64,000 nt of DNA, from positions 310,001-374,000 of the forward strand of contig NZ_BCQM01000003.1 of the NCBI RefSeq assembly GCF_001552075.1, given 5' to 3'. Within the stretch, counting starts at the first letter, position 1, and each line of letters starts with the position of its first letter. The stretch comes from Arthrobacter luteolus NBRC 107841 (GTDB lineage: Bacteria > Actinomycetota > Actinomycetes > Actinomycetales > Micrococcaceae). Made by a program: the position numbers and the translations under genes. Shown piece by piece: positions 56,797 through 61,597 of the stretch. The notes below the pieces were generated by a model that was not told the DNA's origin, did not search any database, and was given only the letters and a program-made list of their open reading frames with translations.

Positions 56797-57048
56797 TTAC
56801 TCGTTGTGGCTCTTGCCCTCTGCCAGCTCGGCGCTGGTGTCCGAGCGGCCCATCATGAACGGAATCATGAACGCAAGGGTGCCGAGCACAAGGCAGGCAG
56901 CCATCGGCCACACGACGTCCAGCGTCAGCCAGTTCAGCGAGTAGAGGGACAGCACGAAGAGCCCGAAGAAGATGACAAACGTCACGAGGTTCTTGACCAG
57001 GTGTCCTTCGCCCGAGTGAGTCGGCTGCTTAGCACTGGTACCTGCCAT
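56797..57048 (-). CDS. Small two-helix membrane protein
   Basis: 83 residues with two hydrophobic helices (LVTFVIFFGLFVLSLYSL and VVWPMAACLVLGTLAFMIPF) and polar ends. It starts at ATG 57048 with GGAGAA upstream, and a longer frame to 57066 is rejected. It lies 41 bases downstream of deoC and shares the terminator at 56731. Function unknown. Confidence 0.65.
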   Translation of the reverse strand: MAGTSAKQPTHSGEGHLVKNLVTFVIFFGLFVLSLYSLNWLTLDVVWPMAACLVLGTLAFMIPFMMGRSDTSAELAEGKSHNE

Positions 57049-57089
57049 GGGAGTTCTCCGTTTCAAAAAAGTTTTCAGCGGCGGACGGA

Positions 57090-57797
57090 TCAGTAACCGG
57101 ACCCGCCGTTACCACCCTTAACAATAGCGATACCTGAGCTGGCTCCAATTCGCGTGGCGCCGGCGTCGATCATTGCGAGGGCATCTTCGCGGCTGCGGAC
57201 CCCGCCGGAAGCCTTCACGCCAAGCTCCGGGCCAACAGTCCGGCGCATCAGGGCGACGTCCCCGGCGGTGGCTCCGCCGCCGTTGAATCCGGTGGAGGTC
57301 TTGACGAAGTCGGCTCCCGCTTCGACCGATGCTTCGCAGGCCAGGACCTTCTGCTCGTCGGTCAGCAGCGCGGTTTCGATAATGACCTTCAGGATGCCTC
57401 CCGCCTCATGGACGGCTTCCGCGACCGCGCCAATGTCGCGGACCAGTGCCTCCCTGTCCCCACGGCGGGCAGCGGCAACATCAATAACCATGTCGATCTC
57501 ATCGGCACCGTCCTGGAGGGCGCCCTGCGCCTCGAAGACCTTCACCTCGGTGGTGGTCGCTCCCAGGGGGAAGCCAATGACGGAGCAGGTGTCCACCCCG
57601 GTGTCCTTGAGTGCGGTGTGCACCGTGCTGACCCAGATCGGGTTTACGCACACGGACTTGAAGCGGTACTGGGCTGCCTCTTCACAGACCCGCAGGATGT
57701 CCTCACGGGAGGCATCCGGCTTCAGCAGCGTGTGGTCGATATAGGAGGCGAGGTCAGCGGTATCCGGAGTCTCTCCAGGCGCGGTGTTCGTGGGCAT
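57090..57797 (-). CDS. deoC: Deoxyribose-phosphate aldolase
   Basis: About 235 residues forming a TIM barrel. The Schiff-base lysine is in [10 protein letters not shown] near residue 164 and the second lysine in [19 protein letters not shown] and VIIETALL are family motifs. It splits 2-deoxyribose-5-phosphate into glyceraldehyde-3-phosphate and acetaldehyde in deoxynucleoside breakdown, fitting the purine nucleoside phosphorylase and phosphomutase at the window end. ATG 57797 follows GGAAAGGACC; a frame to 57833 is rejected. Confidence 0.95.
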
Positions 57798-57879
57798 GGC
57801 GGTCCTTTCCAAACTGGGCTTCCATCCTCGCATATGGAACGCCAGCGGGGTGTGTAGCTATGAATAACTGGAGGAAGGC

Positions 57880-57948
57880 ATGACTCTGTGGAGCTTTAGG
57901 CAAGCTAACTACCTGGTGAAAACGCAAAAACCGGACGGCTTCCTGTGA
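57880..57948 (+). CDS. Possible 22-residue peptide ORF ahead of a terminator
   Basis: ATG 57880 follows a perfect GGAGGAAGG site, and the frame (MTLWSFRQANYLVKTQ...) ends with TGA inside the hairpin at 57927-57966. It is either a true short peptide, a leader peptide with attenuator, or chance. There is no codon evidence strong enough to decide. Confidence 0.25.
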   Translation: MTLWSFRQANYLVKTQKPDGFL

Positions 57949-57966
57949 GGAATGCCGTCCGGTTTT
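57927..57966 (-). terminator. Bidirectional intrinsic terminator of the mini-peptide gene
   Basis: AAAACCGGACGGC (57927-57939) pairs with GCCGTCCGGTTTT (57954-57966). Read on the minus strand the stem is followed by U-rich UUUUGCGUUUU, as expected 10 bases after the stop of the 46-codon gene. On the plus strand the stem ends in TTTT too. Confidence 0.8.
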
Positions 57967-57976
57967 CTGCTGATTG

Positions 57977-58117
57977 CTACAGCGGCCAGTTGCCGATCAG
58001 CGGCTGAGCGATGTTACCGCCACCGTTGCTGGTAGAAGACGCGGCATTCGCCGGTGCTGCAACGCCAACGGCAGCGATAGCTGCGGCGAGAAGAAGGGAT
58101 ACGCCAAGTTTCTTCAT
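57977..58117 (-). CDS. Secreted mini-protein with Sec signal and short mature peptide
   Basis: 46 codons. AGGAGC stands five bases before ATG. The protein begins MKKLGVSLLLAAAIAAVGVA and has a clear signal-peptidase site after ANA; only about 21 residues remain, ending NIAQPLIGNWPL. Its own promoter-like element and intrinsic terminator delimit it. It may be a secreted signal, a small structural or antimicrobial peptide, or a cell-surface factor. It is divergent from a stand-alone TPR gene. No family recognised. Confidence 0.75.
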   Translation of the reverse strand: MKKLGVSLLLAAAIAAVGVAAPANAASSTSNGGGNIAQPLIGNWPL

Positions 58118-58356
58118 TAGAGCTCCTATTGTGTGAAATATGCCCAGTGTGCTGACAGAAGTGATTCTACCCAGAAATCACAAAATATGTTCACGCAGAA
58201 GCGCGTATGGAGAAGCCGACAATTGATCGTGGGGGGCAGTCCGGATAATTCAGCCATGACTTGCCCCGCGTAATGCTTGGGCGGTCTGTCCCTGCCAGAG
58301 CAGAATAGACGTAGTGTTTGCTGCAAGCAGCCGATTGGCGAGAGTGAGAAAGTGTC
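58118..58356. promoter_or_regulatory. AT-rich divergent region with promoter-like elements
   Basis: On the minus strand TGAACA (58188-58193) and TAGAAT (58164-58169) stand 18 bases apart ahead of the mini-peptide gene. On the plus strand GCTGC-AA-GCAGC (58320-58331) lies 26 bases before the TPR start with no clear sigma-70 pair. No tRNA or open frame of note is seen. The region is AT-richer than most of the window. Confidence 0.45.
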
Positions 58357-59391
58357 GTGGCTTTGACTACCGATGACTTCATATTGAACGAGTACAAGGC
58401 ACGACTGCTCTGGGAACGCCGGGAGTACACCGCCGCCCTAAAACACACGCGCCAGGCTGCAGAGACTGCAGCCTCGCGAAAGGATGAGGCTGGTTGGTGG
58501 AGGATGACCTTCCTGCTCGCCGAATGTCAAAGGGAGCTCGGCCTCATCGACGAATGCGCAGACACGGCAAAACTACTGGCCGATCATCCGTTAACTCTGG
58601 ACGATCCTGAGTTGGCAGCCAAAGCCAAAGCGCTGAGATCGGCCGGTTTGCGGAGCCTCGGGCAGCTTCCTGAGGCTCTGGAGGTTGCGCGCGAAGCGGC
58701 TCTCGATTTTCCTGAGACAGGATACGGGAGCAAAGGAAAGCTTGAAGCTCAGCAAGTTCTGGTTGCCGCACTGGCGGAAAGTGGAAACCTGGAAGGTGCA
58801 TGGCGGGAAGCTGAAATCCTTGTCGGACTGATCGATGACGGAACAGCCGCCAACAAGGCTGGGAAGGGGTACTGGGTTGTAGGTAACGTGGCGTTCCTGC
58901 TGGGAAGGAATACAGAAGCCACGCACTACCATGGCCTGGCAGCCGAGTGTCTTTCACCCAGCAACGATGTCAGCCTATGGGCCCTGTTCAACAAGGCATC
59001 AGCGTTTATGCGGCTGACCGCAAATCTTGTCGAGCCGGAAACCCTACAGTGCATTGAACGCGCGGAGATGGCGATCTCTATCAGTGGCGGAAACCCTCAG
59101 GACGAACTGGATATCATTTCCATTCGTGCTCACTGGTGCTACCTCACCGGCGAAGTGGCCGCGGCGAGAGAGCAAATGGCCGGGGTTGTGCAACAGGTTG
59201 ATTCAATGTCGCCGCTGACAGAGGGGGACGCGCGTCTCCTGTATGCACGAATTTTGAACGATGACGGTGAAGTGGACCAAGCGGTTGAACAAGCCCGCGC
59301 GAGCGCCGATCTATTCGACAAAGTGGGTGCTGCAACTAGGGCTGAACATGCAAGAACGTTCTTGACGGAGATAGGTCGGCTGGATTCGTAG
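58357..59391 (+). CDS. Stand-alone TPR-repeat protein
   Basis: 344 residues, about seven helix-turn-helix TPR-like pairs (e.g. REYTAALKHTRQAAETAASR, LRSLGQLPEALEVAREAAL, AAREQMAGVV) with no signal, membrane segment, DNA-binding or enzymatic domain. Bacterial TPR proteins of this length include peptide-sensing Rap/RRNPP-type regulators. GTG 58357 follows GAGTGAGA. Codon use is visibly less GC-rich than its neighbours, suggesting later acquisition or lower expression. It is divergent from the secreted mini-protein. Peptide sensing is inference. Confidence 0.75.
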   Translation: MALTTDDFILNEYKARLLWERREYTAALKHTRQAAETAASRKDEAGWWRMTFLLAECQRELGLIDECADTAKLLADHPLTLDDPELAAKAKALRSAGLRSLGQLPEALEVAREAALDFPETGYGSKGKLEAQQVLVAALAESGNLEGAWREAEILVGLIDDGTAANKAGKGYWVVGNVAFLLGRNTEATHYHGLAAECLSPSNDVSLWALFNKASAFMRLTANLVEPETLQCIERAEMAISISGGNPQDELDIISIRAHWCYLTGEVAAAREQMAGVVQQVDSMSPLTEGDARLLYARILNDDGEVDQAVEQARASADLFDKVGAATRAEHARTFLTEIGRLDS

Positions 59392-59449
59392 TTCAGTTGA
59401 CGCGGGATGGCCTTCGGGCGCGCTAGGATGGCCGCACGATGCGGGGTGG

Positions 59450-59480
59450 AAACCTCCGGCGGGAACAAGCGGGGGTTTTT
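59450..59480 (+). terminator. Terminator of the TPR gene
   Basis: AAACCTCCG (59450-59458) pairs with CGGGGGTTT (59470-59478), including one U-G pair, and is followed by TT. It lies about 60 bases after the TPR stop. Confidence 0.65.
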
Positions 59481-59591
59481 ACTAAGGAAGCTTTGTTTTT
59501 TGGGGGAAAATGAAAAAGTCTCATATTCACTGCTGTGGAATACGGGTGCAGAGTCAACACTTCGGCAGTGCGTCTACGCATGGGGGGCGTA

Positions 59592-60029
59592 ATGACGGTT
59601 AGCGAAAGCATCAACTACAGCGTTCGTGGGGACTCCGAGATTCGGGAGTCATCAGCGGAGGCCGCATCTGCCATGGAAGGCTACGCAGAAGTCTCCCAGG
59701 ACGACGGTTTCATCAGCATGGTGCTGCCGCCCGGTGCCGTTATCACCGGCGGGATTGCCGCCCGTGCCGCTGCGGAGTTCCAGGAACTGGCCGGAGCCGT
59801 GGACAAACCCCTGCTGCTGGAACTGACAGGCATTGAGTCGATCACGCGCAGCGCCCGCACCGTTTTTGGTTCCGCGCGCTCCGCGTCCGCCGTCGCCGTC
59901 GTCGGCTCCACCCAGGTCGATCGGGTCATAGCCAACTTCCTGCTGGGCGGGGACCTGCCGCCGTGTCCCACGAAGTACTTTTCGTCGAAACCCGATGCCC
60001 TGGCGTGGCTGGGAAGCCGGGCAGGATGA
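59592..60029 (+). CDS. STAS-like domain protein (anti-sigma antagonist-like)
   Basis: About 145 residues. An N-terminal flexible part leads to a beta-alpha domain (DGFISMVLPPGAVITGGIAA, PLLLELTGIESITRSA, AVAVVGSTQVDRVIANFLLG) with the SpoIIAA/STAS order, of the type sometimes called DUF7793. No clear phospho-serine/threonine site is obvious. ATG 59592 follows GGGGGG and is preferred over 59535. It overlaps the downstream GGDEF-EAL gene by four bases, so it probably partners that enzyme. Confidence 0.75.
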   Translation: MTVSESINYSVRGDSEIRESSAEAASAMEGYAEVSQDDGFISMVLPPGAVITGGIAARAAAEFQELAGAVDKPLLLELTGIESITRSARTVFGSARSASAVAVVGSTQVDRVIANFLLGGDLPPCPTKYFSSKPDALAWLGSRAG

Positions 60030-61597
60030 CGGAGCCGGACACAGAGGACACCCGTCTCCAGCAGGTTGTGGACGGAATTGTCCGCATCGCGGCCGGTGAC
60101 CTGAGTACGCGGATCCGCACCTCGGCCAGACGGGACGCCGTCGACGCCGTTATCACCGGCATCAATCTGCTGGCCGAAGAGCTGAATTCCGTCTACCAGG
60201 AGTTTGAGGAGCGGGTGGAGTCGCGGACCCGTGAGCTGCAGGCGGCGCACCGCCAGATGCAGCGGATGGCCATGAGCGATGCCCTGACCGGCACCGCTAA
60301 CCGGACAGCGCTGATGCATGAGATTGAAGCAGAACTCGCCGCCTCGGGGGACGGCCTCAAACGGCCCGCCATCCTCATGATCGACCTCGACGCGTTCAAA
60401 GACATCAATGACAGCTTTGGACACCAGACCGGAGACCAGGTGCTCGTCGAAGTTGCCCGGCGGATCCGCTGGGCCGTCCGGCGCGGAGACACGGTGGCCC
60501 GGCTGGGCGGGGACGAATTTGCCGTCCTGCTCCCGGAGACCGGCCTGACGACGGCCATGGGGGTTGCCGCCCGGGTCCAGGAATCGCTGGCCGAGTCCAT
60601 CCGGGTAGAGGAAATCGATGTCTGGCCGCGGGCGAGCATCGGTGTGCACTCCGCGCTCCAGGGCGAATCTCCGGAAGACATCATGGTCCGGGCGGATACC
60701 GCCATGTATGCGGCGAAGGAGGCCGGGCGAAGCCAGAGCAAGGCGTTCGAGCCGGTGATGCTCTATGCGCGCCAGTTCCGCCGGGAGATGGCCGCGGAGC
60801 TGCGCGAAGGCGTGGCCCGGAACGAACTGTTCCTGGCCTACCAGCCGGTGGTGGAGCTCGCCACGGGCAGGATGACCGGGGTGGAAGCCCTGATCCGGTG
60901 GCGCCATCCGCAGCGCGGACTCATCATGCCGGACGAGTTTATTTCGATCGCCGAGGAGACCGGAATCATCCTGGACGTCGGGCGGTGGGTCCTGCGCGCC
61001 GCCCTGGAACAGGTGGCCCGCTGGGAAGAACAGCTTTCCCTCGAATCTGACTTCAAAGTGCGCGTAAACCTCTCCGCCATGGAACTGCAGCGTCTTGACC
61101 TGGTGGACCACGTCCGCCGGGCACTCGCGGAGACCGGAATCGACGCCGCCCGCCTGGTCATCGAGATCACCGAAAGTGCGTTCGTCAGCGGCGGGGACGT
61201 GGAAATGTACTCGCTGAAATCCCTCGATGCCCTGGGTATCGGCATTGAGATCGACGATTTCGGCACCGGATATTCCTCCATCAGCTATCTGCGCCGGCTG
61301 CCCGTGCACACCGTGAAGGTGGACCGCAGCCTGATCCGCGACATCAGCGCCGATCCCGGTCAGCTGCAGTTCGTCGACGCCGTCCACGGACTCATCCAGG
61401 CGGCCGGAATGGAAGCCGTTTTTGAGGGGATCGAAACCCTGGACCAGGCAGCGGACCTTCTGGTCCTGGGCTGCCGCAGCGGCCAGGGCTATTACTTCAG
61501 CCGGCCGCTCGAAGCCGGGCAGGTGGCTGCAATCCTGGAATCGGGCACCACGCTCCCGCTCGTGCAGGCCTCAGCCGCGGCTCCCACTGCGGGCTGA
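60026..61597 (+). CDS. GGDEF-EAL cyclic-di-GMP enzyme
   Basis: About 523 residues. A HAMP-like N-terminus (IVRIAAGDLSTRIRT) and coiled coil (about 40-80) lead to a GGDEF domain with RLGGDEFAV near 160, then an EAL domain with EALIRW near 286, NLSAMEL, EITES, DDFGTGYSS, KVDRSL and EGIET. The GGDEF and EAL signature residues all look intact, so it may both make and break c-di-GMP. There is no transmembrane segment, hence the protein is cytoplasmic. The ATG at 60026 overlaps the STAS gene stop (ATGA). It could link a STAS-relayed signal to biofilm control. Confidence 0.9.
   Translation: MTEPDTEDTRLQQVVDGIVRIAAGDLSTRIRTSARRDAVDAVITGINLLAEELNSVYQEFEERVESRTRELQAAHRQMQRMAMSDALTGTANRTALMHEIEAELAASGDGLKRPAILMIDLDAFKDINDSFGHQTGDQVLVEVARRIRWAVRRGDTVARLGGDEFAVLLPETGLTTAMGVAARVQESLAESIRVEEIDVWPRASIGVHSALQGESPEDIMVRADTAMYAAKEAGRSQSKAFEPVMLYARQFRREMAAELREGVARNELFLAYQPVVELATGRMTGVEALIRWRHPQRGLIMPDEFISIAEETGIILDVGRWVLRAALEQVARWEEQLSLESDFKVRVNLSAMELQRLDLVDHVRRALAETGIDAARLVIEITESAFVSGGDVEMYSLKSLDALGIGIEIDDFGTGYSSISYLRRLPVHTVKVDRSLIRDISADPGQLQFVDAVHGLIQAAGMEAVFEGIETLDQAADLLVLGCRSGQGYYFSRPLEAGQVAAILESGTTLPLVQASAAAPTAG

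Follow-up and report, generated by a model that had tools for sequence, protein, structure and literature searches.

In the Rap-Phr systems of Bacillus, a TPR receptor that lacks an HTH domain is encoded beside a small Sec-exported precursor, and the signal usually lies at the C-terminus. In Rap proteins, response regulators are the target of an N-terminal helical bundle. The locus described here, from Arthrobacter luteolus NBRC 107841, resembles Rap-Phr in this layout but is actinobacterial, has its two genes in divergent orientation and encodes a peptide with a GxWP core. The A3 profile of its TPR-only receptor branch gave no significant Rap match (RapF, E 0.17). In most TPR-only loci a GGDEF-EAL gene follows the receptor gene, and no Rap is known to have such a gene downstream. 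The PlcR-PapR and NprR-NprX systems of the Bacillus cereus group combine an XRE HTH with TPRs, as do the HTH-TPR relatives of our receptor. A profile of these relatives aligns with the first half of PlcR (HTH and TPR; E 2.3e-9), with four designed repeat proteins scoring higher in the same search. In contrast, the focal receptor has no HTH, and the peptide core of PapR is unrelated to GxWP. The Rgg/ComR receptors with SHP/XIP in Streptococcus are likewise HTH-TPR proteins that work with a small peptide. The ComR HTH is among the PDB matches of our profile and XIP has an aromatic core, as has the focal peptide, whereas in precursors of the focal type the signal peptide is of the Sec type and the core is often repeated in tandem. 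The NsdA-type TPR regulators of Streptomyces are approached by one HTH-TPR relative from another family (L301), whose match to the NCBIfam model NsdA_fam_reg is weak and below the cut-off (48 bits, cut-off 75), a possible distant link to that Streptomyces regulator family; the focal TPR protein had no NCBIfam match at E <= 1.

The RRNPP(A) family is treated as one of Firmicutes/Bacillota or Gram-positive bacteria in the accessible parts of PMC10075063, PMC9765709, PMC11343458 and PMC13220807, which mention no member from actinobacteria. RRNPP_detector was, according to these parts, applied only to Firmicutes and viruses, and PMC9765709 speaks of Firmicutes. For actinobacteria, the available portions describe signals as typically enzyme-made small molecules (PMC10075063), or present gamma-butyrolactones together with peptides that are cyclic or modified (PMC4748050). 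The available parts of PMC10075063, PMC11343458, PMC3601957, PMC13220807, PMC13419125, PMC9765709, PMC12700828 and PMC4748050 do not describe the focal system. No actinobacterial RRNPP-like system or GxWP core was described among the literature matches listed, as far as their titles and abstract openings go and within open-access journal papers. In the part of PMC10075063 available, an RRNPP(A) receptor is a TPR protein of 250-500 aa; the focal receptor has TPRs and 344 aa. It is also adjoined by a gene for a propeptide with predicted Sec export, its signal peptide recognised by eye and by pattern. As for homology to a founding member, the HTH-TPR relatives match PlcR and the focal branch joins them in the receptor tree, but the profiles of the TPR-only receptors reach Rap at no better than E 0.17 (A3) and 0.008 (A4), behind unrelated TPR proteins.

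The features of the locus are collected in Table 1; the window is the whole stretch of 64,000 nucleotides that was analysed. Reading the sequence directly recovered the secreted mini-peptide gene, with its signal peptide (by eye) and ribosome-binding site, and the AT-rich gap that had been described in the original prediction. The terminator claimed for the small gene corresponds to a terminator-like perfect inverted repeat flanked by A/T runs 3' of the precursor stop (it also appears as a self-match of the sequence). Its loop is too long for the terminator scan, which has a limit of 8 and left the repeat unreported. The promoter-like element of the same prediction proved to be at chance level, with one found against 0.7 expected in shuffled sequence. 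Eight close relatives have two intergenic blocks in common, GCTGAC and GTAA(C/T)G, which are a possible shared promoter or operator. A search of Rfam with positions 57000-60600 gave no match up to E 1, and hence no known riboswitch, for example of the c-di-GMP type.

Table 1. Features of the peptide-receptor locus, in window positions
Feature	Position	Strand	Basis or remark
Hairpin resembling a terminator, with a GC-rich stem of 10 bp and a 14-base loop	57926..57966		T run on both strands
Predicted pheromone precursor gene, 46 codons	57977..58117	-	ORF read directly; signal peptide of Sec type, then a variable linker and the core LIGNWPL at the C-terminus
Predicted pheromone core IGNWPL, codons 41-46	57980..57997	-	Alignment conservation, tandem-copy comparison
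Predicted signal peptide, residues 1-25, hydrophobic, ends APANA	58043..58117	-	By eye and pattern; cleavage site inferred
Divergent intergenic region, 239 bases	58118..58356		GC 51.0%, against 66.2% for the window
Precursor ribosome-binding site AGGAG	58123..58127	-	Read in sequence
Putative receptor of 344 aa with TPRs only and without an HTH; starts with GTG	58357..59391	+	ORF reading, Pfam, structure model
Asn177 codon, helix 165-181	58885..58887	+	96% conserved, 97-row alignment
Asn212 codon, helix 205-221	58990..58992	+	95% conserved, 97-row alignment; 35 residues after Asn177
DUF7793 protein gene, possible partner	59592..60029	+	SpoIIAA-like match slightly below its cut-off
GGDEF-EAL protein gene (domains for making and degrading c-di-GMP), possible output	60026..61597	+	Domain matches

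The product of the small gene consists of MKKLGVSLLLAAAIAAVGVAAPANA before and ASSTSNGGGNIAQPLIGNWPL after the predicted signal peptide cleavage site, and its short mature part ends in NIAQPLIGNWPL. The original prediction had proposed a search of other Arthrobacter genomes for co-occurrence and for conserved C-terminal residues, and both were found. The precursor and the TPR gene occur together, divergently in every case, in 29/29 genomes of the genus. A peptide search recovered the precursor in 27 of them, and the remaining two precursors, one with a GTG start, came to light when the sequence next to the TPR gene was read. In the 27 aligned genus peptides, mean column identity is 79% in the signal peptide and 41% in the linker, and the core columns hold P in 100%, W in 89% and G in 70%; WP is replaced by LFP or MFP in three of the 29 genus precursors. 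An SD-like sequence lies upstream of all 29 precursor starts. Because the small gene adjoins the TPR gene in every genus genome and every start has a sequence resembling a ribosome-binding site, it is, judging from these comparisons, more than a chance reading frame.

The pairing extends beyond the genus. At E <= 0.01 the precursor profile matched 78/295 genomes of the family, and 36 of the 60 extra-genus places were fetched; those passed over were mostly short matches within longer ORFs, and two of them, L168 and L162, were recovered through other searches. The occurrence of the small gene without the TPR gene in relatives had been named as evidence against the proposed pair; a TPR homologue is present in 33 of the 36 fetched places. 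As for the other three, L138 has its precursor at a contig end, L147 holds neither precursor nor TPR gene, and L115 (G037:C15) has a precursor with the ending SVGWWPH, around which no TPR gene was found within about 5 kb on either side. The TPR profile in turn matched 143/295 genomes of the family. Receptor loci from outside the genus, taken from among the matches listed, together with 17 genus paralogue regions, contributed to a set of 171 receptors, mostly of this family and with repeats counted once, which was scanned for a divergent signal-peptide ORF containing [WF]P; the HTH label was set by pattern, and for seven receptors by eye. Among the matches listed, a divergent precursor adjoins 72/76 TPR-only receptors (29/29 in the genus, 43/47 elsewhere) and 47/95 HTH-TPR receptors (46 by pattern, one by hand); the scan found none for the other 48 HTH-TPR receptors, this genome's included. 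The same scan was positive in 13/3420 shuffled upstream regions and 2/171 wrong-strand regions. When only receptors fetched by their TPR match are counted, again among the matches listed, a precursor is present in 43/46 TPR-only (29 of these being the genus) and 41/89 HTH-TPR cases. The four TPR-only receptors lacking one are L144, which lies 228 bases from a contig end, L253, a broken ORF with a stop, and L173 and L245, which look like pieces of HTH-type genes.

The tandem receptor genes at L143, L144 and L146 represent module duplication; at L143 and L146 each of the two receptors has its own divergent precursor, and at L143 and L144 a GGDEF-EAL gene lies downstream. On plasmids, the TPR protein matched a single Streptomyces record and an HTH-TPR protein 20 records (19 Streptomyces, one Embleya), and no convincing precursor was seen in the four plasmid regions with receptor homologues that were read. 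One scan of viral contigs with the HTH-TPR alignment gave one relative, its match confined to the HTH.

The precursors themselves point to the released part. Their usual core is [VI]G[NW]WP[NDYH], and 57/119 precursors carry two to six copies of it: at least two copies occur in 13/72 precursors of TPR-only receptors and in 44/47 of HTH-TPR receptors. In the TPR-only group 59 precursors have one copy, nine have two, two have three and two have four; in the HTH-TPR group the numbers with one to six copies are three, 14, 11, 11, six and two. L211 repeats AIGNWPDPMK six times, L162 VGNWPDR five times and L146 VGNWPD four times, and the focal precursor has a single copy. Comparison of 230 pairs of copies gives 98% identity for the five core residues and 44% for five spacer residues. 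Nearly identical cores separated by freely varying spacers are a signature of pheromone precursors and resemble the outcome of selection on a short released peptide. Repeated signals within a precursor are known for Rap-Phr, according to the available part of PMC11343458. The residues after the core differ between the two receptor types. Of 91 copies in TPR-only systems, 44 have the C-terminus of the protein one residue past the core P and 62 have it within three residues. In HTH-TPR systems the two positions after this P hold D in 136/150 copies and P in 108/150, respectively. The type of signal thus tracks the type of receptor.

Upstream of its GTG, the reading frame of the TPR gene runs into a stop without offering another start, and an HTH masked by a wrongly placed gene start is thereby ruled out. 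As originally predicted, its codon use is low in GC: third-position GC is 59.1%, the lowest of 28 long non-overlapping ORFs of the window (mean 76.3%), some of which are possibly spurious. The gene, despite this composition, is present in 29/29 genus genomes. The single Pfam TPR matches of the focal protein are all below their cut-offs, and its structure model is an all-helical TPR superhelix (pLDDT 94.8). A fold search with this model found general TPR superhelices best, with RapF at rank 35 (TM 0.47). The wider A4 profile reached RapJ (E 0.008) and RapF (0.037), both ranked under many unrelated TPR proteins. With the HTH-TPR model, eukaryotic and designed TPR proteins came first and the PlcR-PapR7-DNA complex followed at rank 13. 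Five precursor-bearing HTH-TPR relatives were compared with Pfam, and each exceeds an HTH cut-off: four pass both HTH_31 and HTH_3, and the fifth HTH_3 only. The three genus HTH-type paralogues tested, this genome's included, pass no Pfam HTH cut-off; their HTH, which was judged by eye and by an HTH-TPR profile that itself contains these paralogues, is therefore diverged or doubtful. In the receptor tree (168 sequences; FastTree, with long branches and a midpoint root), the TPR-only receptors form one clade except L245, and there are two changes of HTH label, one being the truncated L245. The HTH was apparently lost once on the way to this clade, as far as the tree can tell. The focal receptor thus falls into one clade with HTH-TPR regulators of the PlcR-like kind but itself lacks a DNA-binding domain. 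Besides the two asparagines of Table 1, Trp173 and Trp208 are 100% conserved in the 97-row receptor alignment. From their conservation, Asn177 and Asn212 are candidates for a contact with the peptide backbone. In the accessible part of PMC3601957, an Asn of RapF (Asn227) that is conserved across the RNPP family holds the peptide backbone.

The TPR gene had been regarded as isolated. It is instead followed on the same strand by the DUF7793 and GGDEF-EAL genes, an order kept in 6/6 named Arthrobacter loci. Counting receptors among the matches listed with at least 1.3 kb of downstream sequence, and a gene on the same strand within 1.8 kb, GGDEF-EAL follows 51/63 TPR-only receptors compared to 0/38 HTH-TPR receptors. 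It was found for 28 of 29 in the genus (the exception being the fragment L173) and 23 of 34 elsewhere, leaving 12/63 TPR-only receptors with none in that range. This difference in gene order between the two receptor types is the reason for proposing a c-di-GMP output.

Collectively, these results suggest that the pair is an RRNPP-like peptide-pheromone system whose receptor acts on a protein, perhaps one of c-di-GMP metabolism, a reading to which we give a probability of roughly 0.8. The tandem cores, the PlcR-like HTH-TPR relatives and the conserved asparagines fit it, and on this sequence evidence the signalling pair envisaged at the outset gains support. The 46-residue precursor would be exported by Sec and cut by signal peptidase, and its mature part would then be trimmed to a short C-terminal peptide bearing the core, about LIGNWPL. 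The peptide could be re-imported via an oligopeptide permease, for which the genome encodes ten SBP_bac_5 proteins as candidate binding proteins; proteins of this kind are also found in 11/14 control genomes. Inside the cell it would bind the TPR groove, probably against Asn177, Asn212, Trp173 and Trp208, to judge from their conservation. Since it has no DNA-binding domain, the receptor is expected to resemble Rap in acting on a protein. Gene order makes the DUF7793 and GGDEF-EAL proteins, and through them c-di-GMP, the candidate target, a step of which we are less sure than of the others.

The combination of a precursor of Sec type, whose aromatic core is conserved, and a cytoplasmic TPR protein next to it could also be read as a secreted bacteriocin-like or surface peptide with an immunity factor, chaperone or export helper inside the producer. 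We consider this improbable: the HTHs above Pfam cut-offs in 5/5 tested precursor-bearing relatives and the profile match to PlcR fit a regulator, and tandem copies with free spacers fit the release of small, near-identical peptides. PADLOC matched neither the peptide nor the TPR protein, nor the DUF7793 protein; the single HTH-TPR relative tested there was matched through its HTH. In PHROGs, the peptide had no match, the TPR protein matched one unnamed family (E 0.0078) and the HTH-TPR relative matched regulators via its HTH. That the genes are neighbours through shared ancestry, with no functional link, would agree with the strongly kept synteny of the six named Arthrobacter loci. This is very improbable, as the pair persists in other genera amid different neighbours and with two receptor architectures, and the duplicated modules L143 and L146 keep precursor with receptor.

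A more serious competitor, although one we hold to be less likely than not, accepts the pheromone and places the output of the TPR-only protein elsewhere than in c-di-GMP: it would act on another protein, or would sequester the peptide from an HTH-type TPR paralogue that lies in the same genome beyond the window (G000:C3:281345-282568; L066, L292), which would provide a transcriptional output. The genome has one precursor-profile match (E <= 0.01) but two homologous receptors. This paralogue, like the others in the 17 genus regions fetched, has no precursor within 1.1 kb, and some TPR-only receptors lack a nearby GGDEF-EAL gene, as noted above. Against this stands the restriction of downstream GGDEF-EAL genes to the TPR-only receptors in the same count. 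The paralogue, which has no Pfam HTH match, may also listen to the focal peptide as an eavesdropper; receptors without pheromone genes may be eavesdroppers, according to the available part of PMC9765709.

Similar candidate pairs are also seen elsewhere in Actinomycetota. In a class-wide sample the HTH-TPR profile matched 13/296 genomes, of which three belong to the focal family; several of the matches outside it had no precursor. Two matches in another family of the same order have precursors that show repeated GGSWPT and a single TWPA ending. In two further families with 19 HTH-TPR places, 12 divergent precursors end in CC or CCG and one has CC near its end; six places, including two where the gene is a fragment at a contig end, have no precursor. 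The one precursor of a third family ends PTCC. Double-cysteine precursors divergent from HTH-TPR genes were seen at L300, L307-L313, L317, L320 and L323-L325 (L296 is the same as L317, and L301 as L307), with endings such as GPTWCC, GGIWCC, LNWPKCC and GAQGCCG. The -CC precursors of these three families are a possible second pheromone class, and a lead to a wider superfamily. A wider reading, whose chances we judge to be even, is that Actinomycetota have their own RRNPP-like superfamily with at least two signal classes, GxWP in the focal family and one more of its order and -CC in three further families. In one branch of it the receptor would have lost its DNA-binding domain and become linked to the DUF7793 and GGDEF-EAL proteins, and a secreted peptide would thereby set c-di-GMP directly in Arthrobacter and its relatives.

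If this is true, actinobacteria would have a conserved linear peptide code that is encoded by genes. Since tandem copies expose the pheromone core, it can be read from the precursors, and the pheromones would be directly testable, with a candidate receptor for each. In the HTH-less branch, cell density might then be tied directly to c-di-GMP.
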